Shown: positions 1,017-28,354 of the stretch, one piece after another
Position numbering within the stretch: position 1 is the stretch's first letter
Layout of the letters: each line of letters begins with the position of its first letter
Program-made: the position numbers and the translations under genes
The notes under the pieces: model-generated
Databases searched by the model: none
What the model was told of the DNA's origin: nothing
What the model saw: only the letters and a program-made list of their open reading frames with translations
NCBI RefSeq assembly: GCF_003991425.1
Contig: NZ_CP034346.1
Coordinates: 4,377,501-4,441,500, forward strand
DNA from: Paenibacillus lutimineralis
Lineage (GTDB): Bacteria > Bacillota > Bacilli > Paenibacillales > Paenibacillaceae
Length of the DNA stretch: 64,000 nt
Direction of reading: 5' to 3'

Positions 1017-1199
1017 TAACGAAACTGTGACAAGTTATTAGCCCGAAAATGCGGCCCTTTTTACTCTAACGAAACTCCATATCGTTATTTAGGCGAAACA
1101 AGGGTCTAACTCTGTAAATTTTGCTAAATAACGATATCCTGTTTCGTTAGATTTTTTTATAGTCCATTTTGCCTCGAATAACGATTGTCAGTTTCGTTA
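1017..1199. repeat. Quartet repeat element, copy A
   Basis: Four 21-bp imperfect inverted repeats of the form TAACGA-N9-TCGTTA start at 1017, 1067, 1129 and 1179. The first two carry AACT next to the left arm and the last two carry AGTT next to the right arm, so the order is forward, forward, reverse, reverse. Spacings are 50, 62 and 50 bp. The unit at 1017 has a degenerate right arm (AGTTA). It lies between the convergent ends of bcp and pfkA and beside the pfkA terminator. Copies B and C in this window have the same layout. No coding content was seen in the gap 913-1283. Confidence 0.9.
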
Positions 1200-1214
1200 G
1201 AAGCGGAAATAAGC

Positions 1215-1254
1215 AAAAACACGAGATTCCGTATAAGGAACCTCGTGTTTTTTT
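1215..1254 (-). terminator. Rho-independent terminator of pfkA (probably bidirectional)
   Basis: Hairpin with ACACGAG/CTCGTGT arms extended by GGTTCC/GGAATC, flanked by A- and T-runs on both sides. It lies about 30 bases beyond the pfkA stop codon. Confidence 0.85.
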
Positions 1255-1283
1255 ACTTAAGTAGCTTATAAGCTCTGTACCTC

Positions 1284-2255
1284 TTATTGAGACAAGCGGG
1301 AAGCCAATTCATACATTTTCATATCAAACGGCTTCTTGGTCGCTACAACTTTCTCGATGTCAGTCAGTACCATCTCGCCGCCGATCATGCCGCAGGCCTT
1401 GTTCGATTCGCCAGCAATCAGGCTGCGTACAGCGAAATCACCGAGTCTGCTCGCCAGGTTGCGGTCGAATGGCGTCGGGCATCCGCCACGTTGAATATGT
1501 CCAAGTACTGTTGCACGTGGCTCCAAGGATGGCTGACGTTTCTTGATCGCTTCAACCACTTCTTCGCCTTTGCCCACTCCTTCAGCAACGATAACGATAC
1601 TATGTCTCTTGCCGTTGTCAAAGTTCTGTCTCATACGGTCAGCCACTTCGTTCAAGTCGAACGGTACTTCAGGAACGAGAATCGTCTCAGCGCCAGAAGC
1701 CAGACCAGAATAGAGAGCGATGTCGCCAGAATGACGACCCATAACTTCAACTACCGAAGCACGTTCATGGGAAGACATCGTGTCACGCAGTTTGTTGACA
1801 GCATCAACGACAATCCCTACCGCAGTATCAAAGCCGATGGTATAGTCGGTGAACGAAATATCATTATCGATCGTCCCTGGCAAGCCCATCGTCTTAATGC
1901 CCAGCTTGCTCAGCTTCTCAGCACCTTGATAGGAGCCGTCGCCGCCGATAACGACCAGGCCGTCGATTCCGCGATCGCGTAAAATTTGCGCACCCTTCTG
2001 TTGACCTTCAGGCGTTCTGAATTCCAGACAGCGCGCCGATTGAAGAATGGTGCCACCGCGTTGAATGATATCACCGACGCTGCGAATGTCCATGGAGAAA
2101 ATATCATTATTCAAGAGGCCTTGGTACCCTCTTTGAACTCCGAATACCTCTACACCATAATACAATCCACTGCGTACAACGGCGCGTACTGCCGCGTTCA
2201 TGCCCTGGGAATCTCCACCACTAGTAAGGACTGCGATTTTTTTAACTGCTGACAT
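1284..2255 (-). CDS. pfkA: ATP-dependent 6-phosphofructokinase
   Basis: A 323-residue enzyme that phosphorylates fructose 6-phosphate to fructose 1,6-bisphosphate, the committed step of glycolysis. Visible family signatures are the N-terminal TSGGDSQGMNAAVRA loop, the ATP-site GGDGSYQGA, the catalytic GTIDNDI with its Asp base, and MGRHSGDIA. Length matches bacterial PfkA (about 320). The ATG at 2255 has GGAGG eight bases upstream. In bacilli pfkA is usually followed by pyk; here a terminator and a repeat element follow instead, so pyk must lie elsewhere. glpX, which encodes the opposing phosphatase, is about 1.7 kb away on the same strand. Confidence 0.97.
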   Translation of the reverse strand: MSAVKKIAVLTSGGDSQGMNAAVRAVVRSGLYYGVEVFGVQRGYQGLLNNDIFSMDIRSVGDIIQRGGTILQSARCLEFRTPEGQQKGAQILRDRGIDGLVVIGGDGSYQGAEKLSKLGIKTMGLPGTIDNDISFTDYTIGFDTAVGIVVDAVNKLRDTMSSHERASVVEVMGRHSGDIALYSGLASGAETILVPEVPFDLNEVADRMRQNFDNGKRHSIVIVAEGVGKGEEVVEAIKKRQPSLEPRATVLGHIQRGGCPTPFDRNLASRLGDFAVRSLIAGESNKACGMIGGEMVLTDIEKVVATKKPFDMKMYELASRLSQ

Positions 2256-2311
2256 GATGATTTCCTCCTAATAATTAATAAAACTTTAAATAACCTCTCT
2301 AATGCGTAAAA

Positions 2312-3391
2312 TTACAGGCGTTTGCGGATCCACTTACTATTGGCGAAGAAGAACAGCCTCATCAGTGGGCTCCTTTTCATCAAACGCTTAGAAACATCAT
2401 AGATTTCCTGCTGCTGGCTTACCTTAGGATCTGATAAATACAGCGCCAGCAATCCTTCGATAATCATTCGATGAAATGACGATGCAGGAAGCTTCTTAAT
2501 GTCATGGCGAGCACCTTCTACAATGTAGGCTATCCGCTCCAGCATTATTTCCTTGCTGTCATAGTAACTGCAGAAATTCAGATCCCCGCCAATCTCATCT
2601 TCCTCCTGATCAATCAAATAATCAAGCATAATATGTAGACCACAAACATGCGGGAAGTAAGCATCGCGAATCGTCTCAGCGCTGCCTCGATCCAACTCCT
2701 CGTTACTCGCTGCCAGAAAAAGCATAAATACCCCTAATGTCGAGCCAGTGGCTGCAGCAAATTCATTCCACTGTAAATGAGGGGTACGTTCCTTGTGTTG
2801 ATCCCACCACTGGATAAGGGCATCTTCACGAAGACTCGGCTTAATATGCTTGTAAACCTGAAGGTCGGTATATAGCCCGACAAGATCCTGGATATAGGGC
2901 TTAGCCGCATAATATCCCGGCAGTAAAGCGATATTGTCCCGGCAAGTCTGGACAAGCTGGTGCAAATACCCTCCATCGTCCTTCTCTTCACGCAAAGCAT
3001 AATAATCTTCAAGCTCAGTCCCCGGATTCACTGCGTCCAGCATGCTTTGATGCAATAAACGAAAATCATCAGCATTCATTGAAGTACTTCGATCACATAA
3101 ATTATCTAAATAATCGCTGATCGTTTGAAAAGCAACAATCAATGGAATTAAAATATGTCGTTTCGGCAAATTCGCCGCTGCATATACTGCCCCACCCTGA
3201 CAATGAAATTCCTTTGTCTGAATGCTGGCCAGCGCCTGCTTCCTCAGCTCTGGATCAGGAATCTCCCCTGCGACCTTCCTCCAACCTTCCAATTCCTTAC
3301 GCACATCCGGAAGTATAAACTTATACACCCGGCTCATCAGCCTTAACGGCTCGCGCGGGAACTGGTTACGGTCCTGCTCAAGTTCAATCAA
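2312..3391 (-). CDS. ytpB: YtpB-like tetraprenyl-beta-curcumene synthase (DUF2600)
   Basis: A 359-residue protein of the DUF2600 family. Its Bacillus member YtpB cyclises tetraprenyl diphosphate to tetraprenyl-beta-curcumene in C35 (sesquarterpene) synthesis, a pathway linked to spore membranes. It is largely helical, as class I terpene synthases are, with acidic stretches suited to Mg-diphosphate binding (DYLDNLCDRS near residue 92 and DYLIDQEEDE near 260); these lack the classical DDxxD, as is known for this family. It sits 56 bases upstream of pfkA on the same strand, and the two may share a transcript, though no metabolic link is obvious. No prenyl-diphosphate synthase or second cyclase is nearby. 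Confidence 0.85.
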   Translation of the reverse strand: MIELEQDRNQFPREPLRLMSRVYKFILPDVRKELEGWRKVAGEIPDPELRKQALASIQTKEFHCQGGAVYAAANLPKRHILIPLIVAFQTISDYLDNLCDRSTSMNADDFRLLHQSMLDAVNPGTELEDYYALREEKDDGGYLHQLVQTCRDNIALLPGYYAAKPYIQDLVGLYTDLQVYKHIKPSLREDALIQWWDQHKERTPHLQWNEFAAATGSTLGVFMLFLAASNEELDRGSAETIRDAYFPHVCGLHIMLDYLIDQEEDEIGGDLNFCSYYDSKEIMLERIAYIVEGARHDIKKLPASSFHRMIIEGLLALYLSDPKVSQQQEIYDVSKRLMKRSPLMRLFFFANSKWIRKRL

Positions 3392-3572
3392 TGGCCTGCC
3401 TCCACAACGTTGATAGATCTAACACGGTCCATCTGCATACTGAAAACCATTCTAATTATAATATGTTCCATCTTATTGTACAAATAAACTAAATCACATA
3501 CTTCAACTTTTAGATAAATTTCGTGCTATACCATAAATTAGCAATCACAGACTAAATTCGTCTCCTCATAGG

Positions 3573-3618
3573 AGTTCAAAAAGTCACTATCCTATGATGT
3601 CGCAAGTTCACGAGGAGC
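3573..3618. repeat. Fragment of the GTTCAAAAAG repeat family
   Basis: Begins with AGTTCAAAAAGTC, the left end of the longer elements at 36768 and 62557, and diverges afterwards; an AGTTCA occurs again near 3604. Probably a decayed end fragment lying upstream of ytpB. Confidence 0.35.
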
Positions 3619-3645
3619 TTGGCGCGGTCCGTTGCATGTTTTTTT

Positions 3646-3828
3646 TAACGAAACTACAGATCGTTATTTTCAAAAAAACATCGGCAAAAATTTTTTAACG
3701 AAACACCATACCGTTATTCCGAAGAAATTCGCACTTTCAACCTTTAATTTCCTCAAATAGCGATACTGAGTTTCGTTAGAATTCGGAACTGCCTTTTTTG
3801 CCACAAATAGCGATACCTAGTTTCGTTA
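3646..3828. repeat. Quartet repeat element, copy B
   Basis: Four units begin at 3646, 3696, 3758 and 3808, giving spacings of 50, 62 and 50 bp, identical to copy A. The first two are TAACGA-N9-TCGTTA (the second with CCGTTA), and the last two are TAGCGA-N9-TCGTTA in reverse orientation. The element lies in the 580-bp gap between ytpB and glpX, directly beyond the glpX terminator. The sequence between units is only weakly conserved among copies. Confidence 0.9.
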
Positions 3829-3851
3829 GAGGTTCTGAGTTCCAATTTGAA

Positions 3852-3899
3852 CAAAAAAAATCGGAGGAACCTGACTAGAACTAGTCAAGCTCCTCCGCA
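3852..3899 (-). terminator. Rho-independent terminator of glpX
   Basis: Read on the minus strand: a long hairpin (GCGGAGGA with TCCTCCG arms and an inner GACTAG/CTAGTC) followed by a run of eight T. It lies about 75 bases after the glpX stop. Confidence 0.9.
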
Positions 3900-3971
3900 A
3901 ATAAACGGAGTTTAAAACAAAATAACAATTACATTGGAAAAGATACTTCGGCCGGAACCGGCCGCTTGTTG

Positions 3972-4964
3972 CTACATGGCTTCAGCATGTCTGAAGCCCA
4001 CACCCAAATCAATGCCCTTGCTTGGCAGGTAATGAATGCTGCGGATATACCGGATCGTACGGCTCTGCGCCCGCATTATAACCGAATGAGTCTCGGCCCG
4101 ATCATTGCCGATAAATCGTACCCCGGTCAGAAATTCACCGGTACTTACGCCGGTTGCCGCGAAGATCACATCGCCAGAACCGACCATATCCTCCATGTGC
4201 AGGACCCGCAGCGGATCGTCCAGCCCCATCATATGACAACGTTGAAGCTCGAACGGTCCCTGCGGCAGGAGTCGACCCTGCATCTCCCCACCAAGACATT
4301 TGAGAGCTGCAGCAGCCAGCACCCCTTCGGGCGCACCGCCGGAGCCCATGTACAGATCCACTTCATTATCAGGCAACGCAGTAGCTATCGCTCCGGCTAT
4401 ATCGCCATGATCGAGCAGCTTCACACGTACGCCTGCCTGACGCAGACTGTTGATCAAACCTTGATGACGTTCACGGTCTAGTACCATAATCTTAAGCTCG
4501 GATATCGCCTTGCCCGTAACCTGGCTGGCTTTCTGCAAGGTAACATCTACTGGATCTTCAAGACTTAGCTTGCCGGCCAACTGCGGACCACAAGCCAGCT
4601 TCTCCATATAAATGTCGGGAGCATGCAGCAGGCATCCTCTATCCGCAATTGCGATAACCGATTGTGCATTCTCCAGACCGCGGGCGACAACCTCAGTCCC
4701 CTCCAGCGGATCAACCGCCACATCTACGGAAGGTCCTTGCTTGTTCCCGACCTTCTCGCCGATATAGAGCATAGGTGCATCATCCATCTCACCTTCACCG
4801 ATGACCACCGTCCCGTCAATCGATACGGAATCGAACATGGAACGAATAGCTGTGGTAGCAGCCTGATCAGCAGCATTCTTATCGCCTCTACCGATGAAAC
4901 ACGCGGAGGATAGAGCCCCCATTTCAGTTACACGTACAATCTCCAAAGCTAATTCCCGTTCCAT
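3972..4964 (-). CDS. glpX: Class II fructose-1,6-bisphosphatase (GlpX)
   Basis: A 330-residue metal-dependent phosphatase that converts fructose 1,6-bisphosphate to fructose 6-phosphate in gluconeogenesis. GlpX hallmarks are visible: GRGDKNAADQAA near residue 26, GEGEMDDAPML near 57 with acidic metal ligands, VDPLEGTE near 86, and GSGGAPEGVLAAA near 208. Length fits GlpX. The ATG at 4964 follows a G-rich site (GGGGGG). It lies 55 bases downstream of the PPDK regulator gene and may be read with the ccpN operon, which would place three gluconeogenesis functions in one unit. No GlpK/GlpF glycerol genes are present. Confidence 0.95.
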   Translation of the reverse strand: MERELALEIVRVTEMGALSSACFIGRGDKNAADQAATTAIRSMFDSVSIDGTVVIGEGEMDDAPMLYIGEKVGNKQGPSVDVAVDPLEGTEVVARGLENAQSVIAIADRGCLLHAPDIYMEKLACGPQLAGKLSLEDPVDVTLQKASQVTGKAISELKIMVLDRERHQGLINSLRQAGVRVKLLDHGDIAGAIATALPDNEVDLYMGSGGAPEGVLAAAALKCLGGEMQGRLLPQGPFELQRCHMMGLDDPLRVLHMEDMVGSGDVIFAATGVSTGEFLTGVRFIGNDRAETHSVIMRAQSRTIRYIRSIHYLPSKGIDLGVGFRHAEAM

Positions 4965-5019
4965 TTGATTTCCCCCCAGTTAATAACGATTTAATATGAT
5001 TCCTCTGCTAATTCCCTAC

Positions 5020-5838
5020 TTAATCTTCCGGTGAATCCGGAATATGACCCATAATAATTCCAGCCGTCTCTTCAATTGCTTTGTTCGTAATGTCAATGAC
5101 CGGGCAGCCTAGCTTGGCGTACAGTGTCATCGCATATTCTGTCTCTTCGCGAATCCGCTCAAGACTAGCGTATTGGGAGCCCTCAGGCAGCCCCAACATC
5201 TTGAGCCGCTCAGAACGGATCTTCAACATATACTCCGGCTTCATCGTCAATCCAATCACCCGGTTAGAAGGAAGACTAAGCAGTTCCTGCGGTGGTCCAA
5301 CTTCCGGAACAACCGCATAATTAACCACTTTCTTGCCCCGATGAGCCAGAAATATACTGAGCGGCGTCTTCGAAGTCCGTGACATCCCAAGCAGCACGAT
5401 ATCCGCCTTCAGCATCGCTCCAAGATCACGTCCATCATCACAGGCGACCGTAAATTCAATCGCCTCCATTCTGCGAAAATACTTATCGTCAAGCTGATGC
5501 AACAGACCTGGCCGCTCCTGCGGCGAATCATCAAAGGTATCGATAAATGCCTGCATCATCGGCCCCATAATATCGACAATCCTCAGGTCCAGGCGGACAG
5601 CTTCTTCCCGAATCATCTCCCGCAGTTCGGGTTGTACAAGAGTATAAGCGACGAATCCGTTAAGCGGGGCCGTCTCCTCCATCAGCTTCCGCAGTTCATC
5701 CTCGCTTCTTACATTGCCGTAACGGCGAATGGTAACGCGCTGATTCTGGAACTGATGTATTACAGCCTGCACGACGGCATCCGCCGTGTCCCCGATCGAA
5801 TCAGAGACAATCGTAACATAATGCGAAGCTTGCTCCAT
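5020..5838 (-). CDS. Pyruvate,phosphate dikinase regulatory protein (DUF299, YqfL-like)
   Basis: A bifunctional ADP-dependent kinase/phosphate-dependent phosphorylase family (PSRP/PDRP) that switches PPDK or PEP synthase on and off by threonine phosphorylation. Seen in the sequence: the N-terminal VSDSIGDTA motif, the P-loop-like GMSRTSKTP near residue 150, and the C-terminal region with E/R-rich helices. I give ATG 5838 (272 residues) because the protein then begins just before the conserved VSDS motif as in relatives; a GTG at 5862 would add eight residues and sits 4 bases after the upstream ccpN stop. The ribosome site does not settle the choice: AAGGAG is only one base from ATG 5838. The ccpN-yqfL gene order is the same as in Bacillus subtilis. 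Confidence 0.92.
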   Translation of the reverse strand: MEQASHYVTIVSDSIGDTADAVVQAVIHQFQNQRVTIRRYGNVRSEDELRKLMEETAPLNGFVAYTLVQPELREMIREEAVRLDLRIVDIMGPMMQAFIDTFDDSPQERPGLLHQLDDKYFRRMEAIEFTVACDDGRDLGAMLKADIVLLGMSRTSKTPLSIFLAHRGKKVVNYAVVPEVGPPQELLSLPSNRVIGLTMKPEYMLKIRSERLKMLGLPEGSQYASLERIREETEYAMTLYAKLGCPVIDITNKAIEETAGIIMGHIPDSPED

Positions 5839-5865
5839 TCTCCTTCTTCCCCCCGGTTTCACCCA

Positions 5866-6510
5866 TTATCCATTGGCTTCTACTTCTAATATAAATTTAA
5901 TGATTGAGGCTTTGGTCAATCTACCTACTAAGTCAGGTCCTGTACCTTCCTGCCCCTTCTCACTCTGAACGACAACAGGTAAGCTATCCACTTCATAGAA
6001 AATCATCTTATGTGCGGCATCGAGCACCGAGTCCTCAGGAGACACGGTGACTACCTTGGACTGCCTGGTCATTACCATACTTACAGGCATCGATGCCGCA
6101 GCAGGATTTCCTAACGTTACCTTAAGAAAATCCTTGCGTGACGCAACTCCGGCTAACTTGCCATCAGCATCACAGATCATAAGAGTACCCACATCCTGCA
6201 GGAACAGGGTCACAACAGCATCTTGAATTGTCGTAGCCTCACGGATAATAATCGGATTGCTCTGGATATCCTTGACCTTGGTCTCCTTCAGTAAATACCC
6301 TCCTGATAACCGGGCCACAGCCTTCTTACCGGGGAAATACCCTACCTTCGGTTTCGCATCGATATATTCAAGCATGACTAGAATGGAGAGGTCACTTCGA
6401 ATCGTCGGCCTGCTCAGATTCAGGCTCTCCGCTATTTGTTCACCGGTGATCGGAGCCCTCTTCTTCACGATATCGATTATTTCTAATTGACGAGATGTCA
6501 GTTCAATCAC
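5866..6510 (-). CDS. ccpN: CcpN-type repressor of gluconeogenesis genes (HTH plus two CBS domains)
   Basis: A 214-residue regulator. Residues 1-60 form a winged HTH (ITGEQIAESLNLSRPTIRSDLS), and the rest forms two CBS motifs that sense adenine nucleotides. In Bacillus, CcpN represses gapB and pckA under glycolytic conditions. The start is a GTG at 6510 with GGAGGG five to six bases upstream. The next gene, the PPDK regulator, starts at or just after the stop codon, so translation is probably coupled. A sequence matching the CcpN operator consensus lies 145 bases upstream (6655-6665), which suggests self-regulation (inference). Confidence 0.93.
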   Translation of the reverse strand: MIELTSRQLEIIDIVKKRAPITGEQIAESLNLSRPTIRSDLSILVMLEYIDAKPKVGYFPGKKAVARLSGGYLLKETKVKDIQSNPIIIREATTIQDAVVTLFLQDVGTLMICDADGKLAGVASRKDFLKVTLGNPAAASMPVSMVMTRQSKVVTVSPEDSVLDAAHKMIFYEVDSLPVVVQSEKGQEGTGPDLVGRLTKASIIKFILEVEANG

Positions 6511-6654
6511 AGGTTCCCTCCATTTCCGAATGCTAACTTTACTTAATATGACACTCTTATCGTAGTATACATATCCTAATAGCAGTTATTCGGATATATA
6601 TTCCTAAGAGATAAACATATAATACACAATATTAATCGAATAATCAATAAATAG

Positions 6655-6665
6655 TATGTCATATA
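6655..6665 (+). promoter_or_regulatory. Candidate CcpN operator
   Basis: TATGTCATATA matches every position of the CcpN operator consensus as I recall it (TRTGHYATAYW). It lies in the AT-rich leader of ccpN and could serve autoregulation. An AT-rich setting raises the chance of a random match. Confidence 0.45.
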
Positions 6666-6703
6666 TAAAAATATAGGCACACCCCATTTTTGATTTGATT
6701 ACG

Positions 6704-6744
6704 CAAAAAAAATGAAGCCATCCCCAAATTGAGATAGCTTCATA
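6704..6744 (-). terminator. Terminator of the LacI-family gene
   Basis: On the minus strand, ATGAAGC and GCTTCAT arms with an 18-base loop, followed by a run of eight T, 36 bases after the stop codon. Confidence 0.8.
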
Positions 6745-6779
6745 TTTATGTATCTTTTATGAAGGATAGCGTCCAAAAA

Positions 6780-7796
6780 TTAATTCGATATTTTCCTAAG
6801 TGATGATTCCTTAACAACCAGCTCTGCATTCAACACAAAAAGTCTCTGATCGGCCAACCTGTTGTCATTAATCTGATCAATTAATTTCTCAGCCAGCACT
6901 GACCCCATCATGTATAGAGGCTGCTCCATCGAGCTGATTCTCGGCACAACATAGTTCGTCAGACGAATATTGTCTACGCCTACGACTGCCAATTGATCAG
7001 GGATCGATATGTCCATCTCGGCACAGGCTTTATATACGCCAAGCGCCATTTCATCATTGGCAGCAAATACGGCGGTGAAATCCTCGCACTGACTCCGCAG
7101 TCTCTTGAACGCCTCATATCCGCCATCCTCTGAAAAGTCACCGTTCTCCACCAAACCCTGTTCAAATGGAATACCTGCCTCTTCAAGAGCCTGGATGAAT
7201 CCTTCCAACCGTTTGATACTGTCGGTAGCTTCCGAGTAACCGCTCAGAAAAGCTATTTTACGATGCCCTTGTTCGGTCAGATGATATATAACATCTCTGG
7301 CCAACGTAATATTGTCTGTGAATGAGCACGGAATCAACGGATGCCCTACCTCCCGTCCAATTACAGCAAGGCGGTAACCATCCTCTGCATAAGAGCTTAG
7401 TTCCTCATCTGAGAGACTGGGGGTGACCATAATTAGGGCGTCTACCGTATGATTGATCAGAAATGATAGGAACTCCAGTTCCTTTGCCCTCTGATTCTGA
7501 GCATCGCAGATCAGCACTCTATAATGGAGAGAATTCGCCATGTTCTCGATCCCTTTAATAATTTCCGCATAATAAGAGACGAGCACATCTGAGACTACAA
7601 CCGCTAGCGTCATCGTCTTGCGACTGCGCAGCTGCTTGCCCATATTGTTGGGGATATACTCCATCTCGCGGATGACCTGCATGACCCGCTGTTCTGTCTT
7701 GGCATTCACCAGCTTGCTCCCGTTCAACACGCGTGACACTGTGGCCGGCGATACATTTGCCCGCTTCGCCACATCGATAATTTTAATATCCTTCAT
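6780..7796 (-). CDS. LacI/GalR-family transcriptional regulator
   Basis: A 338-residue sugar-responsive repressor. The N-terminal HTH (IDVAKRANVSPATVSRVLNG) and hinge are followed by a periplasmic-binding-protein-like sensor domain (LAVVVSDVLVSYYAEII onward) ending near residue 330. It is the last gene of the minus-strand glycan block, 333 bases downstream of the GH18 gene and with its own terminator, so it may be transcribed separately. It may regulate the fucosidase operon or the importer (inference from position). The effector sugar is unknown. Confidence 0.9.
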   Translation of the reverse strand: MKDIKIIDVAKRANVSPATVSRVLNGSKLVNAKTEQRVMQVIREMEYIPNNMGKQLRSRKTMTLAVVVSDVLVSYYAEIIKGIENMANSLHYRVLICDAQNQRAKELEFLSFLINHTVDALIMVTPSLSDEELSSYAEDGYRLAVIGREVGHPLIPCSFTDNITLARDVIYHLTEQGHRKIAFLSGYSEATDSIKRLEGFIQALEEAGIPFEQGLVENGDFSEDGGYEAFKRLRSQCEDFTAVFAANDEMALGVYKACAEMDISIPDQLAVVGVDNIRLTNYVVPRISSMEQPLYMMGSVLAEKLIDQINDNRLADQRLFVLNAELVVKESSLRKISN

Positions 7797-8129
7797 TGCC
7801 TCCGGTTACCACACTTTCATAGAAAAATACCAAATGCTATCAACAATCAACTCAGTACCCAATCTATCTAAATTCCGCCACGTTATTTGCTATAGCTATA
7901 GGGTAACACAACTCTGAAGGGTTTATCGATAGTTTTCATTACAATCGCACGCTGACCATAATAAAAGAAGACCGCAGGCGGCAAGCATGCCTGTAATCAG
8001 GATATATCCGCAACATGCGGATCATGCCGTTAACCCACAGCCTTCTCATGTTATAAGATGAACATTTAAGACAAGCAATCCGGATAGAGGGCCACCGCGA
8101 TGGCCCCTTCTCCCGTTGTAAGACGAGTA
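7797..8129. other. Intergenic region between GH18 and LacI genes
   Basis: A 333-bp gap without a convincing ORF. A GC-rich hairpin, GGGCCACCGCGATGGCCC, at 8089-8106 follows the GH18 stop and could act as a weak transcript end, but it has no T-run. A smaller hairpin (TCCGCAACATGCGGA) lies near 8006-8020. The promoter of the LacI gene should lie near 7800-7900; I could not fix it. Confidence 0.4.
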
Positions 8130-9161: not shown

Positions 9162-9185
9162 CTGTTCTTCACTCCATTCACTAGA

Positions 9186-11798: not shown

Positions 11799-11809
11799 CA
11801 TTTCTCCGT

Positions 11810-18016: not shown

Positions 18017-18023
18017 TAATGAT

Positions 18024-18074
18024 GAAAGCCAACATCCGGTCTCGCGACCGGGAGATGTTGGCTTCATTTTTTTT
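18024..18074 (+). terminator. Terminator between the AraC gene and the importer operon
   Basis: Long hairpin (GAAAGCCAACATC paired with GATGTTGGCTTC, inner CGGTC/GACCG) followed by eight T. It ends the regulator transcript and may also work for the converging importer operon. Confidence 0.92.
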
Positions 18075-18110
18075 ACAAAGTCGGACTCTGATGGAGTTCT
18101 TCTCTATTTC

Positions 18111-19712: not shown

Positions 19713-19746
19713 TAGCTAAACTCCCCTTTTTTGATAGTTAATGTTA

Positions 19747-20655: not shown

Positions 20656-20670
20656 TCGTGCCCCTCCTTC

Positions 20671-21639
20671 CTACCACAGACTATTGTCGCTCGTCCGCCG
20701 TACAATCTGATTCACAGTAACCAGCAGAATGCAGTTAATTACCGAGTTGAACAAGCCGATCGCTGTTGAGAAACTGTACTGTGCATCAACGAGACCGGAG
20801 CGGTACACGAAGGTAGCAATGACGTCCGATGAAGTCATATTCAACGGATTTTGCAGCAACAGGATTTTCTCAAATCCTACGCCAAGCAAGCTGCCTATGT
20901 TCAAAATCAGCAAGATTGTCATCGTAGGGACTATGGTAGGTAAGTTAATATTGCGTATCCGTTGGAAACGTGACGCCCCATCGATAATAGCCGCCTCATG
21001 AAGCCCAGGGTCGACGCCAGATAGTGCCGCCAAATAGATGATCGTTCCCCAGCCGGCGCTCTGCCATACTCCTGACAAGACATATACCGTCTTGAACCAT
21101 CTCGGATCAGTTAGGAAAGCAGGTGCTTGCAAGCCCATTCCTTCGATCATATGAACAATGATCCCGGTGGACGGGGACAGGAATGAGATGATCATCCCGG
21201 CCATGACTACTACAGAAATAAAGTGCGGTGCATATGTCACCGTCTGGGCTAGCTTCTTGAAGAAGCCGTTTCTGATCTCATTGAAGGCCAGAGCAAGAAT
21301 AATCGGGATCGGAAATCCTATGGCTAGTTCATACAAGCTGATGCTCAGTGTGTTCCATAGCAAATCCCAAAAATAATAAGAATGGAAGAATCGTTCAAAA
21401 TGATCGAATCCAACCCATGGACTCCCCGTAATCCCTTTGGTCGGGATAAAGTTCTTGAACGCAATCTGAATACCGTACATCGGCCCGTATGAGAAAATAA
21501 GAAAGTATAAAAATGCGGGCGCAATGAAGATGTACAATTCCCAGTTCTGTATGATGCGCTTCCATAGGTCCTTACCAGCGCCATTCTTCCCGGGCTTTAA
21601 CATAACCTTGCCTGAGACAGCAGCCTTGGTGTCTTGCAT
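20671..21639 (-). CDS. Sugar ABC transporter permease (LplB-like)
   Basis: A 322-residue permease, first gene of the importer operon. An N-terminal basic stretch is followed by helices with the LplB-typical YLIFSYGPMYGIQIAFKNF segment and an EAA loop at DPGLHEAAIIDGASRFQR. It forms the heterodimeric channel with the LplC-like partner. AAGGGGTGAT precedes the ATG. A cre-like site lies 85 bases upstream, which suggests CcpA-dependent repression by preferred sugars (inference). Confidence 0.92.
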   Translation of the reverse strand: MQDTKAAVSGKVMLKPGKNGAGKDLWKRIIQNWELYIFIAPAFLYFLIFSYGPMYGIQIAFKNFIPTKGITGSPWVGFDHFERFFHSYYFWDLLWNTLSISLYELAIGFPIPIILALAFNEIRNGFFKKLAQTVTYAPHFISVVVMAGMIISFLSPSTGIIVHMIEGMGLQAPAFLTDPRWFKTVYVLSGVWQSAGWGTIIYLAALSGVDPGLHEAAIIDGASRFQRIRNINLPTIVPTMTILLILNIGSLLGVGFEKILLLQNPLNMTSSDVIATFVYRSGLVDAQYSFSTAIGLFNSVINCILLVTVNQIVRRTSDNSLW

Positions 21640-21723
21640 AGGATCACCCCTTTCAGTTCGATTTCTTAGATGTTCTTTTTTTAAATGTTCAACTTGTCTT
21701 GCTATTTGCGAATCCTGCAGGAT

Positions 21724-21737
21724 TGCTAGCGCTTACA
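21724..21737 (-). promoter_or_regulatory. Candidate cre site upstream of the importer operon
   Basis: TGCTAGCGCTTACA matches the catabolite-response consensus TGWAANCGNTNWCA except at one position. It lies 85 bases before the LplB-like start in the 407-bp divergent gap. Confidence 0.6.
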
Positions 21738-21871
21738 TTTCTAACGATAGCGCTGAAGGATTGAACCGTAAATATGTGGTTTCTGAGCCTATACAATCCA
21801 CGCCCCGCAAGGCTTAAGCCGTTTTGACAATAATGGCCACAACGCCGAAATGTGTTTTTTTTGCTCAAAAA

Positions 21872-21885
21872 AGATAGCGTTTACA
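21872..21885 (+). promoter_or_regulatory. Second, weaker cre-like site in the divergent gap
   Basis: AGATAGCGTTTACA has two mismatches to the cre consensus. It lies between the importer operon and the MFS gene at 22047 and could affect either. The rest of the gap 21640-22046 holds AT-rich promoter-like sequence but no ORF. Confidence 0.35.
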
Positions 21886-22046
21886 TTTGAGATCAGATTT
21901 GACCAATTCACCTATATCTCAATGATAATAATATCTCCCTCTTTTTCCGACAGCTTATGATATACTAGCTTTAATTGTATTGTAAGACATAGCTTGATTT
22001 ACGAATCCTACATACAACACCACCGAAACGAGGTCGTCATCACTAT

Positions 22047-23246
22047 ATGGAACCGTCTTCATTATCTCGGCCCAATCTATCATCGATGCGCGCTTTCTCC
22101 TTTACCATATACGGAACGATGGTGCTGGTCAGCACCTATTTCCCGCTCTTCTATGCCAAGCTCGGATTTTCGAACAGCCAAATCGGAGTCTTGTATGCGC
22201 TGGGTCCCATGATTTCTCTGATAGCCAATCTCCTATGGAGTATCGCCAGCGATAAGTATAGAACGGTCAAAAAGATCATGTGCATCCTATTAATAGGTCA
22301 AATCATCATGTCTTACATCCTTTCGATTTCAACCTCTTTTTCCATGATCATGCTGATTATTACGATATTTTATTTCTTCTTCTACCCTGTCTTCCCACTG
22401 TCTGATACGATTGCGATTAATGCTGCCAAGCAGCATGGCAAGAGCTTTATTACCATTCGGATCTTCGGCTCCATAGGCTACGCCTTCTTTGCGCTTGTCA
22501 TCGGGTATGTGCTATCAGTGATCGGTGCATCCAGGACGATGTGGGTAACTATGGCTATAGCTGGCATTGCGCTGCTTATTACGATGTTCATCCAGGACCA
22601 GAGCAGTCCAGTCGCGAAAATGAACATGTCTGGGATCTGGTCCATCCTGCGCCAGAAGGAGCTGCTATGGTTCTTCGGCTGCGTCTTCTGTCTCGCTATC
22701 TCGGCGCGTATGAACGATGCCTTCCTAACAATTACCCTCAAAGATCTGGGGGCTGGAGAAAATGTGATCGGCTGGGCTCAGCTAGCTTCCTCCTGCTCTG
22801 AAATACCGATCTTTCTATTTCTAAGCATTTATGGGGACAGGTTTAAGGAACTGCCGCTGCTTATCTTTGCCAGTCTAGTATTTGCAACCCGATTCCTGCT
22901 CGTTAGTCTAACGGGATCGGCCTATGCGATCATCGCGATCCAATTAATGCATAGCCTCTCCTTCGGCATTTTCTATGTCACAGCGATACGGATGCTCACC
23001 CGACTGATTCCTGATGAATTCCGGGCAACCGGAATGGCCTTATTCACAATTGCATGGTCCAGCGCTTCCGGTCTACTCAGCGGTACCTTGGGCGGAATCG
23101 TATTCGAACAGTTCGGCCGCCAGCGCTTCTATCTGATTGCCATGACGTTCGCACTCATCGCTTGCATTGGCTTTGCGACCCGCTATTTTCACCGCGATCC
23201 AGCAATACGTGCAAGGAAATCTATCGGCTCCTCGAAGAAAGGTTAA
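22047..23246 (+). CDS. MFS transporter (LacY/nucleoside-symporter-like, MFS_1_like)
   Basis: A 399-residue, twelve-helix major facilitator protein. The helix 1 phrase FTIYGTMVLVSTYFPLFYAKLGFSN (split across the first loop) and the R-T-V-K-K loop after helix 2 resemble the sugar/nucleoside:H+ symporter group. The start at ATG 22047 has only a weak distant GAGGT; the next ATG (22086) is an alternative. Divergent from the sugar importer operon, it may carry fucose or another product of the locus, in or out. The substrate is unknown. Confidence 0.82.
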   Translation: MEPSSLSRPNLSSMRAFSFTIYGTMVLVSTYFPLFYAKLGFSNSQIGVLYALGPMISLIANLLWSIASDKYRTVKKIMCILLIGQIIMSYILSISTSFSMIMLIITIFYFFFYPVFPLSDTIAINAAKQHGKSFITIRIFGSIGYAFFALVIGYVLSVIGASRTMWVTMAIAGIALLITMFIQDQSSPVAKMNMSGIWSILRQKELLWFFGCVFCLAISARMNDAFLTITLKDLGAGENVIGWAQLASSCSEIPIFLFLSIYGDRFKELPLLIFASLVFATRFLLVSLTGSAYAIIAIQLMHSLSFGIFYVTAIRMLTRLIPDEFRATGMALFTIAWSSASGLLSGTLGGIVFEQFGRQRFYLIAMTFALIACIGFATRYFHRDPAIRARKSIGSSKKG

Positions 23247-23266
23247 AGCCTTTTACATTAATGAAG

Positions 23267-23308
23267 AAAAGCAGCCTGCACTCCTTTTGGAGAACAGACT
23301 GCTTTTTA
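23267..23308 (+). terminator. Terminator of the MFS gene
   Basis: AAAAGCAGCCTG paired with CAGACTGCTTTTT, about 20 bases after the stop. Confidence 0.75.
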
Positions 23309-23338
23309 TTATTACTGGCTGATGAAGTATAACAGAAA

Positions 23339-24127
23339 TTACCGCTGCCCCGCTTTTCGGTGAAATAACCAGGTGGACCAAATAAGCGAGGCCGCCAGAA
23401 TCAACACGCACCAGCCCAGCGCCCACCAGATGTGGTCATGAACCGGATTTCCCATGAGTAGTGCACGAATGGTTTCAATAACCGGTGTAATCGGTTGGTT
23501 GTTTGCTACACCTTGCAACCAGACTGGCATCGTACTCGTTGGAACAAAAGCACTGGACAAATACGGTAGGAACAACAGCACAAATCCATATCCGCTTGCA
23601 GCGGCAGGCGATTTAACAACGAGACCGATCGCGGCGAATAACCAGGTGAACGTCAAGATGAACAAAGTAATTACGCCTACTGCTCCGAACCAAGCCCCCA
23701 AACTTGCTCCAGGTTGGAAACCGACAAGAAGCGCAATGCCAAACACAATAGCTGTCGCCAGCAAATTACGTGCCACACTTGCTACCACATGGCCTGTAAT
23801 CACGTGGATGCTGTGAATCGGCATGGTCTGAAATCGGTCGATGATGCCATTGGTCATGTCGGTCGTTACTTCCACAGCTATACTGGAAGAACCAAACCCC
23901 GCACATAACAAGATGATTCCTGGAACGACGTAATTTACATAATCCCCACCAGGGGCGATTGCCCCACCGAATACATAAGTGAACATCAGCATAAGCATGA
24001 TGGGAAGCATAATCGCCATAATCAAAACCTCGGCATTACGCAGGCTGTGCAGTAGACTGCGGCTGATAAATACACCGCTTGTGACTATTTGGGATGGCTC
24101 TTTGATTGATGAAACGTTCTGAATCAT
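23339..24127 (-). CDS. ABC-2 type exporter permease (DrrB-like)
   Basis: A 262-residue membrane protein with about six helices and the ABC-2 signature region (MLPIMLMLMFTYVFGG; later PLPYLSSAFVP-like FLPYLSSAFVPTSTMP). DrrB-type subunits form a drug or lipid exporter with a DrrA ATPase. Its ATG overlaps the stop of the ATPase gene by four bases (ATGA), so the two are translationally coupled. A TetR gene is divergent from the pair, the usual arrangement for drug-inducible export. Confidence 0.9.
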   Translation of the reverse strand: MIQNVSSIKEPSQIVTSGVFISRSLLHSLRNAEVLIMAIMLPIMLMLMFTYVFGGAIAPGGDYVNYVVPGIILLCAGFGSSSIAVEVTTDMTNGIIDRFQTMPIHSIHVITGHVVASVARNLLATAIVFGIALLVGFQPGASLGAWFGAVGVITLFILTFTWLFAAIGLVVKSPAAASGYGFVLLFLPYLSSAFVPTSTMPVWLQGVANNQPITPVIETIRALLMGNPVHDHIWWALGWCVLILAASLIWSTWLFHRKAGQR

Positions 24128-25008
24128 AAAGCAGCCTCCTTTTCTGTTGCAGTTAAAGCCAGGAATACATCATCCAGACTTGGTCTGCGGATACTGATCC
24201 GTGTTCCTTCCCCTGCCGTTTGCACTAGGCCATCCAAAATCTCTTTCAAGTCAGCGATGCTCCCGCCCGTTGGAATTTCCCGGATAACATCGTCATGGGT
24301 ATTGCGGAGTTCAACGACTTCCCCACCGATTCGAGATTTCATCTCTACCGGGGTTCCATGGGCTACAATACGGCCATCCGAGATGACAGCAATGGTGTCA
24401 GCCAGTTGATCGGCTTCCTCCAGATATTGCGTCGTCAGGAACACGGTGACTCCGTCTGCGGACAAATCGAGGATGATATCCCATAATGCGCGCCTGCTCC
24501 GTGTATCCAGACCCGTCGTTGGTTCATCCAAAAATAAAATCGGCCTCCTGACAACTAGACTAAGTGCCAAATCCAGCCGCCGCCGCATCCCTCCAGAGAA
24601 AGTCTTTACCCGCTTGCGTGCTACTTCCGTCAGGTTAAAATACTCAAGCAACTCACTAGCCCGTGCCCGCGCTGCCATCCGCGAGAGACCGGAGAGCCTG
24701 CCCATCATCCTTAGGTTTTCTTCGCTCGACAAGGACTCATCGACAGCAGCAAATTGACCCGTCAAACTAATGGATAGCTTCACCTTTTCTTTGTCACGAA
24801 CCACATCATATCCCGCTACCTTGGCTGATCCCCCATCGGGAGCAACCAAGGTCGAGAGAATGTTAATTAATGTGGTTTTACCAGCGCCGTTTGGTCCTAG
24901 CAGTGCAACAATTTTCCCCTCTGGAACCTTCAAGTCAACTCCATTTAAAACGGTTTGCTGGCCAAACTTTTTTTGCAAGGCGGAAATTTCAATCGCGTAT
25001 GAGCTCAT
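24124..25008 (-). CDS. ABC exporter ATP-binding protein (DrrA-like)
   Basis: A 294-residue ATPase with Walker A GPNGAGKTT near residue 38, the Q-loop, the signature FSGGMRRRLDLA, Walker B PILFLDEPTTGLD and the switch His region (TTQYLEEADQLADTI). The C-terminal DrrA-type tail of about 70 residues is present. Partner of the DrrB-like permease; AAGGAGGAG precedes the ATG. Likely exports a hydrophobic compound. Regulation by the divergent TetR protein is inferred from position. Confidence 0.93.
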   Translation of the reverse strand: MSSYAIEISALQKKFGQQTVLNGVDLKVPEGKIVALLGPNGAGKTTLINILSTLVAPDGGSAKVAGYDVVRDKEKVKLSISLTGQFAAVDESLSSEENLRMMGRLSGLSRMAARARASELLEYFNLTEVARKRVKTFSGGMRRRLDLALSLVVRRPILFLDEPTTGLDTRSRRALWDIILDLSADGVTVFLTTQYLEEADQLADTIAVISDGRIVAHGTPVEMKSRIGGEVVELRNTHDDVIREIPTGGSIADLKEILDGLVQTAGEGTRISIRRPSLDDVFLALTATEKEAAL

Positions 25009-25166
25009 CCTTTCTCCTCCTTATAATTAATTTGTATATTACATAAACAGTTTATTGCATACACAGTATATTCCATATACAATTAGAGTGCAATATAAAA
25101 ATGATAAAAAATTTATAAATATATCTTGAACCACTAATGGATAAGTCATGAGGGGATTGTGAAGCA

Positions 25167-25946
25167 ATGGATAATGAAAGAATGGACAACCTGCCTCTAG
25201 GAGTAGCACTTAGCTGGGGGCTTGTTGAGCCACCAAAGCGGGGACCCAAACGAGAAATGAGCATCGAGAAAATCGTTGAAACCGCGATTGCTATTGCGGA
25301 TGAGGAAGGTCTATCCGCTGTGTCTATGAGCCGGATCGCTTCGACTCTAGGGTTTACGACCATGTCTCTATACCGCTACGTTCCAAGTAAAGACGACTTA
25401 TTACTGCTGATGATGGATGCCGCGTGCGATATAGATATCGCAGAGGAAGCCGAGCAGGACATGGATTGGCGTGAAAAAATGCGCCGGTTTGTTCGGGCAA
25501 ACATCAATGTGATACGTAAACATCCTTGGTATACCGATATTACAATCACTGGAGTCCCGATGACACCTAATAATATGGAAATAGCGGACATTGGACTACG
25601 AAGCACCCGGGACCTGCCGCTTAACGATTATGAGAAACTGTCGATCGTACTCCTCTTAAGCAGCTATGCACGCTCTTGTGGAATTATTATGAACGATTTG
25701 GAACGGACCCTAAAGGCTGGAAAGAGTCCTGGTTCATTTACCGGTTTTGATTACAGCGATGCATTGAAAAAGCTGGTGACTCCCGATCGTTTTCCGGATT
25801 TATATCCGCTCGTGATGTCAGGGGTGTATACCCATGAAGCAGAGGAGGCCAACCCCATTGGAAATGACTTCGAATTCGGGCTGGAGCGTATTCTGGACGG
25901 GGTTGAACACTATCTTTCACTGAAAAAGGGTAAGGAACGGAACTGA
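25167..25946 (+). CDS. TetR-family regulator (TetR C-terminal domain type)
   Basis: A 259-residue repressor. The DNA-binding domain occupies residues about 30-75 (IVETAIAIADEEGLSAVSM, then ASTLGFTTMSLYRYVPSKDDL), and the rest is the TetR_C ligand-binding domain known from tetracycline-type repressors. About 25 residues precede the HTH. It starts at ATG 25167 after GAGGGG. The 158-bp gap to the DrrA-like gene should hold a shared operator, but no clear palindrome was identified. It ends with a strong terminator. Confidence 0.9.
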   Translation: MDNERMDNLPLGVALSWGLVEPPKRGPKREMSIEKIVETAIAIADEEGLSAVSMSRIASTLGFTTMSLYRYVPSKDDLLLLMMDAACDIDIAEEAEQDMDWREKMRRFVRANINVIRKHPWYTDITITGVPMTPNNMEIADIGLRSTRDLPLNDYEKLSIVLLLSSYARSCGIIMNDLERTLKAGKSPGSFTGFDYSDALKKLVTPDRFPDLYPLVMSGVYTHEAEEANPIGNDFEFGLERILDGVEHYLSLKKGKERN

Positions 25947-25957
25947 ATCTCCAACCT

Positions 25958-25998
25958 AAAAAAGAACCTTGATAGGGCACGCCTATCAAGGTTCTTCT
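25958..25998. terminator. Bidirectional terminator between tetR-type gene and 26014 gene
   Basis: Perfect arms AGAACCTTGATAGG and CCTATCAAGGTTCT with a GCACG loop, with A-run on the left and TCT on the right. It serves both converging genes. Confidence 0.9.
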
Positions 25999-26013
25999 AA
26001 TTAGGTCAATCTA

Positions 26014-26943
26014 TTAATTCTCTGTACCAAAGGATATTTTTTTACCCAAACGCCCATACGCTTTCAGCGTAATTAATCGATCAACTGTTATCGAACCACG
26101 CCACTCCTGCTCTCCTGTCGGACTGACCGCCGGAAACGTGATATTCCAGCCCCCGTCAGCTTGCTGACCATCCATTAACCAATCCAAATGCCGCTCTATA
26201 TTATCAGATTGAAGGAGCCGGTTAGCATAACAGTCTGGGGTCTTCGCGTAATCGAGAACCTTGTGGACGTATCCTTCAGCATGGACGTTCTTCTCTATAC
26301 CTTTCGGCCCAGTTAGCCATTCATCAAGAATTCCCTTATATTTTGCCGTCCGTTCTGGCTCTCCTGGTACCGTCTCCAGGAAGGAGATCCATTGCATCGC
26401 ATCATGATAATCACCAGGTCCTGCAGAAGATTCCTCCAGACAGCGCCATACAAAGCCTACTTGTTCCTGGAACCATTGTTCAGCTTGAAACTCAGTGCAT
26501 TCGGATTGTCCAAGCAGTATGCCGATAATGCTTCCCGTCGGATTTAGAGACGGAACACCGTCTTGTTCTGTTGTCCACCAAGGAGCATGTGGGTAATCGT
26601 TCACAGCAGTTGTAGCCCGCGGTAAGCCACCCCCAGAGAGACTTATTCCCTGTAAATAGGACAGGGTACCGTCTAGCATAACACTATCAAATCCGCCGAC
26701 TTCCTTGATGATTAACAGTGCTGCCTCCGTGGTTACAGGCTGACTATGCGGACAGCGCATATCCGGTTCAAGGGCATTCCCAAAGCCGCCATCCTGGTTC
26801 TGATAAGCTTGTAGGGCGCGCAGTACATCCGACTTGGAGCCATTCTCGAAATGGTACGCGAACCGCATCCGATCCAGTAATCTTGCATTTTTATAGATAA
26901 AATCCTTGCTCCGCTCCAATACATTTCTACTTTCATTCTTCAT
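26014..26943 (-). CDS. Prenyltransferase/squalene-cyclase-like alpha-toroid protein, unknown function
   Basis: A 309-residue protein with QW-like repeats: YQNQDGGFGNALEPD near residue 46 and QQADGGWNITFP near 262, as in the alpha/alpha toroids of squalene cyclases and prenyltransferase beta subunits. The catalytic DxDD motif of cyclases is not seen. There is no signal peptide. It lies 35 bases downstream of the WYL regulator gene on the same strand and may form an operon with it. Similar proteins are often annotated only as hypothetical; no function is assigned. Confidence 0.7.
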   Translation of the reverse strand: MKNESRNVLERSKDFIYKNARLLDRMRFAYHFENGSKSDVLRALQAYQNQDGGFGNALEPDMRCPHSQPVTTEAALLIIKEVGGFDSVMLDGTLSYLQGISLSGGGLPRATTAVNDYPHAPWWTTEQDGVPSLNPTGSIIGILLGQSECTEFQAEQWFQEQVGFVWRCLEESSAGPGDYHDAMQWISFLETVPGEPERTAKYKGILDEWLTGPKGIEKNVHAEGYVHKVLDYAKTPDCYANRLLQSDNIERHLDWLMDGQQADGGWNITFPAVSPTGEQEWRGSITVDRLITLKAYGRLGKKISFGTEN

Positions 26944-26978
26944 ACTACAATCCCCCTCTATTCCTTTGAGACTTTCCG

Positions 26979-27929
26979 TCAGTCATTGCTCGAATATTTC
27001 CGTACCAGCTGCTCCGCCTTCGCACGGATCTCTTCCTGAAGCCGTACAGGCTCCAGCACTTCAGCATCAAGCCCGATATAGTAGAAAAAATCCACCGCCC
27101 AGCTCCATTCCGATGCCGGGCAATCAAAGGCAACCTCCCACTCTTCATCTTCAGTCTGCTTGACCAGATGCCCCATATGAGGATCTTGCTCTGCCAACAG
27201 CGCCCCGCGATAAGTGAGCTTCGCATATATATGTACGGACTGCTCAAACACTGTCGCCTCCTTAGACGAACTGAGTGAACCAAGCTCATGTTCCACCTCA
27301 GACTCTGGCATGCTGGAAGCCTCCACTTCTACGAAACGGTCGACCCGAAATGTACGCACTTCCCCATGATGGGAAGAGTACGCTTCACAGTACCAGAACC
27401 CATAGGCTGCATACACTCTCAGCGGACGGATATTTAATTGTCGGCTGTGATTCTGCGAACGATACAACGTTAATAACCACTGCCCATTCGCCGCATACTT
27501 CATCAACTCGCTTAAATATGGTGTTTTATAACGACGATCCGGCACCTCCATTTCTACATGTCCCAGTAAAGGAGTAATTTGACCTAAAGTATGCTCCGGT
27601 AATACGGAACAGATCTTGTCCCTCACTGTCCATCTAGCTTGTTGAAACGGACTGTCGCTGTACTTCATCATCCCGTCCAAAGCAAGCAGCAGTACCAGCG
27701 CTTCCTCCGTATCCAACTGCAGCGGGGGCAGTCTGTACCCTTCCATCAAGCGGTATCCACCGCCAGGACCGCTTACCGCGTAGATCGGAACACCGATCTC
27801 AGACAGCGCCTGCACATCGCGCAGAATCGTCCGCTTCGACACCTCCAGCTTATCGGCAAGTGATTGCGCCGTTTCCGTCTGATGCTGAAGCGCCAACACA
27901 ATGGCCATCATTCGATCCATCCGTTTCAT
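26979..27929 (-). CDS. YafY-like transcriptional regulator (HTH plus WYL domain)
   Basis: A 316-residue regulator from ATG 27929. Residues 1-60 form an HTH_11 (TAQSLADKLEVSKRTILRDVQAL) and residues about 140-215 a WYL ligand-sensing domain (LTLYRSQNHSRQLNIRPL, YGFWYCEAYSSHHGEVRTF), followed by the C-terminal WCX extension. ATG 27929 is preceded by AGGAT; an in-frame ATG at 27953 or GTG-type starts up to 27995 would extend the N-terminus. WYL proteins respond to nucleotides or nucleic-acid ligands. It probably controls itself and the downstream toroid gene. Confidence 0.88.
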   Translation of the reverse strand: MKRMDRMMAIVLALQHQTETAQSLADKLEVSKRTILRDVQALSEIGVPIYAVSGPGGGYRLMEGYRLPPLQLDTEEALVLLLALDGMMKYSDSPFQQARWTVRDKICSVLPEHTLGQITPLLGHVEMEVPDRRYKTPYLSELMKYAANGQWLLTLYRSQNHSRQLNIRPLRVYAAYGFWYCEAYSSHHGEVRTFRVDRFVEVEASSMPESEVEHELGSLSSSKEATVFEQSVHIYAKLTYRGALLAEQDPHMGHLVKQTEDEEWEVAFDCPASEWSWAVDFFYYIGLDAEVLEPVRLQEEIRAKAEQLVRKYSSND

Positions 27930-28173
27930 TGCTGATCCTGTCCCCCGTTCCATCCCAAATATATCAAACCATTGGTGACAACTGTTTGTCGCCAATTTTA
28001 AAGGTCACTATATGTAATAAAAAAACATTTATCCGATGCATTATTCTATACCGATCTAACAATTATTTTGCCCGATCTTGCTGACATTCCCGATATTGGA
28101 CTTTCCCCAGTAATTCCTAGTAATTCAACTCGCTCAGCTATTTTCCTGCTCCCCTCAGCACCCCGTCATTCTC

Positions 28174-28354
28174 TAACGAAACGTGGTAACGCTATTTGAT
28201 CTAATAAGAGCTGCTGAAAATTGTAACGAAACTGTGTATCGCTATTTGAGCAAAAAACGACCAAAAGCCTGTTTTTAGAGTAAATAACGTTCTGTAGTTT
28301 CGTTAGACTTGAAATGCCCGTGATTTTAAATCAATAACGATCCGTAGTTTCGTA
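28174..28354. repeat. Quartet repeat element, copy C
   Basis: Units start at 28174, 28224, 28285 and 28335, giving spacings of 50, 61 and 50 bp. Forward units read TAACGA-N9-(A/T)CGCTA; reverse units read TAACGT/TAACGA-N9-TCGTTA, the last missing one T. The element lies in the gap between the WYL gene and the cold-shock gene, beyond the cold-shock terminator. The remainder of the gap 27996-28514 holds no ORF. Confidence 0.88.

Follow-up and report, generated by a model that had tools for sequence, protein, structure and literature searches.

The 64,000-nucleotide stretch of Paenibacillus lutimineralis DNA analysed here (contig NZ_CP034346.1, positions 4,377,501 to 4,441,500; hereafter the window) carries three copies of an element in which four 21-bp inverted-repeat units follow each other in a forward, forward, reverse, reverse order (++--) at intervals of about 50, 62 and 50 bp. 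This layout recurs at about seventy places in the chromosome, is placed between genes, is conserved in place in a related genome and is found again in other lineages with a changed core. Judging from the sequences, the quartets are somewhat more likely than otherwise to be arrays of cooperative protein-binding sites, presumably serving as a docking platform for a putative protein.

Quartets in the window

The window was scanned for the pattern TAACGA-N9-TCGTTA with at most two mismatches. Eighteen matches were obtained, 12 of which are quartet units, compared with a mean of 1.81 and a maximum of 5 in 100 shuffled sequences. All twelve units of the original prediction were recovered as three ++-- quartets at the expected places, the end of the last unit being corrected from 28354 to 28355. 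The start-to-start spacings are 50/62/50, 50/62/50 and 50/61/50. A strand can be assigned to each unit because the units are asymmetric (TAACGAAAC-N7-CGYTATTT). The features are listed below, A designating one of the two doublet types described in the next section.

1015..1201, + strand: quartet 1, whole element, A doublet first on the + strand
1017..1037, + strand: quartet 1 unit 1, two changes relative to TAACGA-N9-TCGTTA
1067..1087, + strand: quartet 1 unit 2
1129..1149, - strand: quartet 1 unit 3
1179..1199, - strand: quartet 1 unit 4, the sole unit remaining at the orthologous site in the relative G030
3644..3830, + strand: quartet 2, whole element, A doublet first on the + strand, orthologue in locus L177
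3646..3666, + strand: quartet 2 unit 1
3696..3716, + strand: quartet 2 unit 2
3758..3778, - strand: quartet 2 unit 3
3808..3828, - strand: quartet 2 unit 4
28172..28357, - strand: quartet 3, whole element with a centre of 61, A first on the - strand, A-type units at the right as read from the N7 letters
L178: orthologue of quartet 3, with a centre of 62
28174..28194, + strand: quartet 3 unit 1
28224..28244, + strand: quartet 3 unit 2
28285..28305, - strand: quartet 3 unit 3
28335..28355, - strand: quartet 3 unit 4, shortened by one base at its end

A repeat family of fixed geometry

The strict asymmetric unit TAACGAAAC-N7-CGNTA matches 253 times in the window's genome (G000, 6,497,679 bp) and once for the reversed control. 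Among the matches listed, at least 70 array loci could be placed on the chromosome, and among the approximately 100 strict-unit places listed, which cover both strands up to about 1.6 Mb, every unit in that part has a nearby partner. The geometry was determined by means of a weight-matrix scan of the window and of 20-kb stretches picked for containing units, 40 from G000 and 38 from G030, a relative that is 83-91% identical over matched stretches. In this sample, 385 of 399 units belong to groups of three or more. Exactly four units are present in 79 of the 108 groups, three in 14 and more than four in 5; the 60 groups of G000 comprise 44 with at least four units, 8 with three and 8 with one or two. 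Among the intervals of up to 80 bp, the ++ value is 50 in 83/91 cases, the +- value is 62 in 92/100 and the -- value is 50 in 90/100. The remaining ones deviate by 2 bp at most, except for two +- values of 47 and 55, and none is displaced by one full helical turn (10-11 bp). Three +- intervals lie between 80 and 120 bp, two of them at 113, as if a unit were missing, and one at 83. In the five groups exceeding four units, all from G000, the extra units are placed outward at 48-50 bp. The random spacing that a genome-wide search might have revealed was therefore not observed.

All 63 copies with an exact 50/62/50 layout can be oriented with the same doublet type (A) first. The information content per column amounts to 1.5-1.7 bits in the units, about 0.8-0.9 in the spacers and centre and 0.07 in the flanks, so that the element has sharp ends and a length of about 187 bp. 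Two consensus doublets, A and B, recur in degenerate form in the spacers, and each quartet therefore has a direction. Spacers described at the outset as poorly conserved are indeed less conserved than the units, but they are not devoid of conservation. Recent identical duplication does not account for the copies either, as 86% of copy pairs are 55-75% identical.

Conservation in place

Twenty quartets have an orthologue in G030 with four units detected in both genomes. In this set the core changed at 14 of 1040 positions, compared with 445/1887 in the spacers and 894/3663 and 922/3376 in the flanks; gap columns amount to 0/1040 in the core, 30/1917 in the spacers, and 505/4168 and 1091/4467 in the flanks. 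The set was extended to 31 pairs by the addition of pairs with other detected unit numbers and of three later finds, and the corresponding changes are 36/1579 in the core, 675/2817 in the spacers and 1330/7528 in flanks that were aligned locally and are partly coding. The core change rate at fixed orthologous sites is 10-18 times below that of the spacers. Position 19 of the unit is an exception and changes at about the pace of the spacers (20/80 in the smaller set, 28/123 in the larger one). Spacer columns common to paralogues change less (51/416 in 13 pairs) than unshared ones (123/429), and the spacers are therefore not wholly free either. Since orthologous quartets retain their cores and spacing while their spacers drift, purifying selection in place appears to act on both the sites and their spacing, which bears out the initial suggestion, drawn from constant spacing, of selection on geometry.

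A second lineage, whose core is TAACGGANC, displays a 50/62/50 quartet located 3' of a solute-binding-protein gene in seven genomes. The 21 comparisons between these orthologues, performed on a 10-position core, give 6/840 changes in the core and 608/1827 in the spacers; for three TAACGAAAC genomes that have a quartet at this gene too, the values are 0/120 and 66/261, respectively. Between the two groups, position 6 of the unit differs in 28/28 comparisons, the rest of the core in 1/280 and the inner N7-type letters in 162/196. At position 6, G000 has A and each of the 28 TAACGGANC units compared has G, and a test of genome G035 based on position only found G in 93% of 58 partner units. The unit scan found no array beside this gene in 19 of the 29 genomes that possess it. 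Core switching in place within one ancestral array is not claimed, as the next gene downstream differs between the groups, and the shared locus is not regarded as ancestral, about one shared locus being expected by chance according to our own estimate.

Other repeated sequences were noted in the same lineage and at the same gene. In G035 (L259-L288), one spacer contains ATTTCCC-n-ATTTCCC in 16 of 29 doublets, and GGGAAAT-n4-GGGAAAT is unchanged in the downstream region of 7/7 orthologues (L293, L295-L300); this repeat resembles half of a Noc site. Genome G059, without doublet matches, has a different sequence at a similar pitch 3' of the solute-binding-protein gene, GAAAYAAGTG..., in four copies at 51, 52 and 51 bp (L301:3512-3675).

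Distribution across the order

Of 40 genomes in the genus, 17 contain the doublet with at most two mismatches, and other cores, such as TAACGGAAC and TAACGAAGC, also occur at 50 bp. A looser pattern (TAACG-N3-C core, one mismatch) matches 150 of 295 family genomes, belonging to 16 of 19 genera, with one match for the reversed control; these counts take in a second, tandem format, the query being a single 50-bp doublet. Thirty loci from the family search comprise 15 with both 50 and 61-62 bp intervals (one of them from G000), 9 in tandem at 50-53 bp and 6 of unclear format. In a sample of the order, 48 of 119 genomes match, families f2, f4, f5, f6 and f10 among them. At least 16 cases in which a - doublet comes 111 or 112 bp after a + doublet were counted among the matches listed (G036, G039, G518, G520; f2, f5, f6), and the ++-- layout at 50/61-62/50 thus extends to other genera and, beyond the window's family, to at least three families of the order. 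The cores are lineage-specific (TAACGAAAC, TAACGGAAC, TAACGAATC). Only 2 of 199 genomes match in a sample of the phylum, both from the window's family, and the 50-bp doublet is absent from the 195 sampled genomes outside the order. A collection of 2.9 million viral contigs yielded one quartet-bearing stretch with a single quartet (L384:9541-9723), perhaps at the edge of a prophage.

The tandem format consists of fully palindromic units, mostly at 50-53 bp (L197:765-1571, L198:1297-2223, L203:1295-1775, L196:1348-1571). Its stems vary between genomes and within G089 and G290, yet remain largely self-complementary (CGGCAC/GTGCCG, CGATA/TATCG, CGTTGC/GCAACG), and these arrays are perhaps a related, structure-read format.

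Genomic placement

Gene context, established with gene calls from a custom script, was usable for 54 of 69 representatives. Their gaps are convergent in 17 cases, co-directional in 29 and divergent in 8, to be compared with 35, 283 and 106, respectively, in a background of 424 array-free gaps of at least 200 bp. Convergent gaps are therefore enriched (17/54 vs 35/424, P 8e-6) and the depletion of divergent gaps is not significant (8/54 vs 106/424, P 0.13). In co-directional gaps the median distance is 280 bp to the downstream start and 95 bp to the upstream 3' end. Convergent gaps account for 6 of the 20 quartets with context in G035. The orientation relative to co-directional genes is 50 vs 35 for all copies and 16 vs 13 once orthologues and near-duplicates are removed; transcription in one direction is not retained as an explanation, since the bias disappears after this deduplication.

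The genes near the window's quartets encode an AhpC/TSA-family protein, a phosphofructokinase, a DUF2600 protein, a glpX-type bisphosphatase and a WYL-domain regulator. Two quartets are accompanied by terminator-like hairpins, both consensus matches only:

1215..1252, - strand: hairpin next to quartet 1, within the convergent gap that separates the AhpC/TSA-family gene from the phosphofructokinase gene
3862..3897, - strand: hairpin beside quartet 2, 3' of the glpX-type fructose-1,6-bisphosphatase gene

A proposed protein-binding array and its alternatives

The model suggested by these data can be summarized as follows. A putative protein, or protein pair, would bind the TAACG/CGTTA half-sites of the four 21-bp sites (183 bp), and bound neighbours would contact each other side by side at a rigid distance to form one cooperative complex. 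Contact between neighbours is proposed because few units stand alone in the sampled stretches and because extra units are added outward at 48-50 bp. As no interval is shifted by a whole helical turn, direct contacts are favoured over loose phasing, bearing in mind that 10-11-bp insertions or deletions are rarer than 1-bp ones. At gene ends the complex would shape the chromosome or serve as an insulator; the arrays are enriched between convergent genes, and their role is probably architectural or insulating. Dispersal as a discrete sequence of about 187 bp would likely have taken place separately in several lineages, and the copies would then have been retained through host selection. Core letters are nearly uniform within a lineage and changed from one lineage to another, which is the pattern that divergence of a trans-acting reader would be expected to leave.

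A number of observations weigh against this model. The 31-pair set contains 243 gap columns out of 1822 in the core, next to 261/3078 in the spacers and 1672/9200 in the flanks; 210 of the core columns are letters inserted in G030, 145 of them in the pair L133/L165, and 33 are deletions. Loci were picked for perfect units or doublets, a choice that favours conserved copies, and the single +- pair at 83 bp falls outside the 80-bp grouping. No dedicated recurrent partner emerged from the 464 genes beside 266 quartets. The looser doublet pattern is missing from 145 of the 295 genomes of the family. Both flanks of 45 G000 groups were mapped in G030, where the array is present in 31 cases and missing in 14, one of the latter being a weak two-unit group, with 11 further groups unmappable. 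The absences in the family and in G030 indicate that this class of arrays is not essential. Seven of the 14 missing loci were aligned: quartet 1 of the window is reduced to its last unit in G030, a short remnant is left at L142, and the other five have no clear trace of an array.

One candidate reader, an RsfA-like Myb protein, was picked because TAACGG resembles the vertebrate MYB site. Pfam PF13921 matches in 33 of 40 genus genomes and not in G000, G003 or G030; a protein search found the RsfA-like protein in 40/40, with or without arrays, which also weighs against the model. Its DNA-binding domain is nearly invariant among 29 sequences, with two conservative changes common to the three TAACGAAAC genomes, one of which is also seen in G027. 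In the absence of clear variation matching the arrays, this protein is unsupported as the reader rather than excluded.

The copies could alternatively represent a selfish or formerly mobile repeat, similar to miniature inverted-repeat transposable elements (MITEs) or to REPINs (doublets of repetitive extragenic palindromes, REP), mobilized by a transposase in trans, its units being transposase sites devoid of host function. Sharp element ends, the scatter of copies of common descent between genes, spacer consensus sequences that differ among the lineages seen and suggest separate expansions, and differing presence between close species all agree with such an origin, as does an avoidance of promoter-bearing divergent gaps in the expected direction, albeit not significant. 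A host-neutral copy would nevertheless not be expected to keep its cores so much better than its spacers, as is the case between G000 and G030 and likewise in the second lineage. A scan for target-site duplications in 63 old copies (lengths 4-9, offsets 0-6) gave at most about one match above the shuffled expectation, and no transposase is encoded in the 14 largest neighbour clusters beside the 266 quartets, insertion sequences not having been listed genome-wide. Two losses are evidenced by remnants and gains were not shown. The mobile unit of REP/REPIN families consists of two inverted repeats, which the predominance of groups of exactly four does not match. The initially noted resemblance to bacterial interspersed mosaic elements (BIME) and REP does not withstand the search for the domain of the REP-associated transposase (RAYT; Y1 transposase, PF01797): it has no match in G000, G003 and G030, the three richest genomes of the genus, and a RAYT/REPIN origin was rejected on that basis. 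The domain is present in 20 of 40 genus genomes, including G008, G017, G032 and G033, which all lack a doublet match. The GTAG (or CGTC) tag carried by REP/REPIN palindromes at one end does not show at the unit ends in the 63-copy consensus for the window's lineage; in TAACGGANC lineages the letters CGTC can be read within a unit. On balance, a mobile origin without host function is regarded as unlikely.

A structured RNA or DNA cruciform, formed either by the A and B arms as a single long hairpin or by each unit as a separate hairpin, has the folding results and the placement at 3' ends in its favour. The z-scores relative to shuffles are -6.8 for quartet 2 as RNA, -8.1 for quartet 1 as DNA and -2.4 for quartet 3 as DNA; folding is hence far stronger than that of shuffles for two quartets of the window and less so for the third. 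In the spacers, sites that pair in the hairpin are changed at 96/668 and unpaired sites at 197/712, and this slower change of the paired sites is a further point against the protein-binding model; the structure model also predicts this constraint, but columns shared by paralogues change less anyway. Compensatory changes were not found. Arms within one copy match no better than arms of different copies (71 representatives), and in 15 orthologous pairs the spacer pairs changed on both sides still pair in 1 of 10 cases, with about 38% expected by chance, and the unit pairs in 1 of 2, while single spacer changes abolish the pair in 52/76. The spacer-like variation of position 19, the loss of strand bias upon deduplication and the absence of Rfam matches in the window at the gathering threshold also argue against a structure, which we consider improbable. 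Of the two options originally put forward, the protein lattice is accordingly better supported and the large cruciform is weakened by the lack of arm co-variation. Least probable of all are operators of one ordinary transcription regulator: the dyad-like 21-bp sites with a lineage-specific core would suit them, but the enrichment at convergent gene ends, the greater distance to downstream starts than to upstream 3' ends and the mixed nature of the neighbouring genes would not.

Relation to known systems and significance

Several known systems resemble the arrays in part. BIME, REP and REPIN sequences are likewise short interspersed palindromic units between genes, grouped in arrays, often at convergent ends, and form long-lived populations (PMC2817692, PMC8049555, PMC3733652). 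The arrays described here differ by their four ++-- units at fixed 50/62/50 intervals, their lineage-varying core, the missing RAYT domain in the three richest genomes and a unit-over-spacer conservation measured in place. MITEs and the Bacillus cereus bcr1 repeat, the latter from a Gram-positive group and cited in PMC2267715, are also small dispersed non-coding elements; here, copies are diverged, and neither a target duplication nor a related insertion sequence next to the copies was seen.

Noc-binding sites exemplify protein sites that are palindromic and scattered by the tens over a single chromosome. The arrays are similarly dispersed and differ from such chromosome-organisation sites in sequence and in nearly always comprising several units. 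The controlling inverted repeat of chaperone expression (CIRCE) is a long inverted-repeat operator (9 bp-N9-9 bp). It shares with the units inverted half-sites about 9 bp apart; the arrays are not promoter-bound, contain four units per element and occupy about seventy loci.

No earlier description of these arrays was found among the papers listed by searches of an open-access library, from which most subscription papers are absent. Tentatively, they may constitute a previously undescribed, order-wide chromatin element whose complex would nucleate at the inverted centre and grow outward in steps of 50 bp, with recognition letters co-evolving with a diverging architectural protein and a function as gene-end insulator or supercoiling boundary; we view this broader proposal as possible but doubtful. 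Bacterial interspersed repeats are usually read as selfish or decaying, whereas the letters are kept here while neighbouring bases drift. The same four-site geometry in several families of one order offers a case, open to testing, for a multi-site complex of DNA and protein that is positioned by sequence and lies outside promoters, and lineages with different cores provide a natural experiment for finding the reader protein and its specificity shifts.

Additional observations

The longest interval between listed arrays extends from 2.89 to 3.58 Mb in G000 (690 kb) and the array-poor interval of G030 from 2.31 to 2.88 Mb. Both span the GC-skew sign change on the terminus side, G030 not being independent of G000; among listed arrays, the G030 stretch across position 1 is longer still (795 kb). 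The statistics of the origin-distal gap in G000 are weak (P 0.03, or 0.13 once clusters are merged), G035 has no clear case of an array gap over the GC-skew switch, and such a gap is not claimed as a real feature.

In G001 (L219-L238), near-identical doublets were found, the majority of which lie within a longer repeat that they share, at 0.1-0.45 kb from the end of a contig. The shared flank gave no Rfam hit at five of these loci, and the copies are not taken as ends of a mobile element since most end contigs inside this longer flank. Several quartets of G242 (L239-L251) share longer flanks that resemble, by eye, an extra outer inverted pair. In Paenibacillus sp. GM2 (L055, L058, L082, L094, L099, L108), the arrays are amplified in tandem; at L055, L058 and L108 the repeated piece takes in varying amounts of local flank, with periods of about 200-390 bp.

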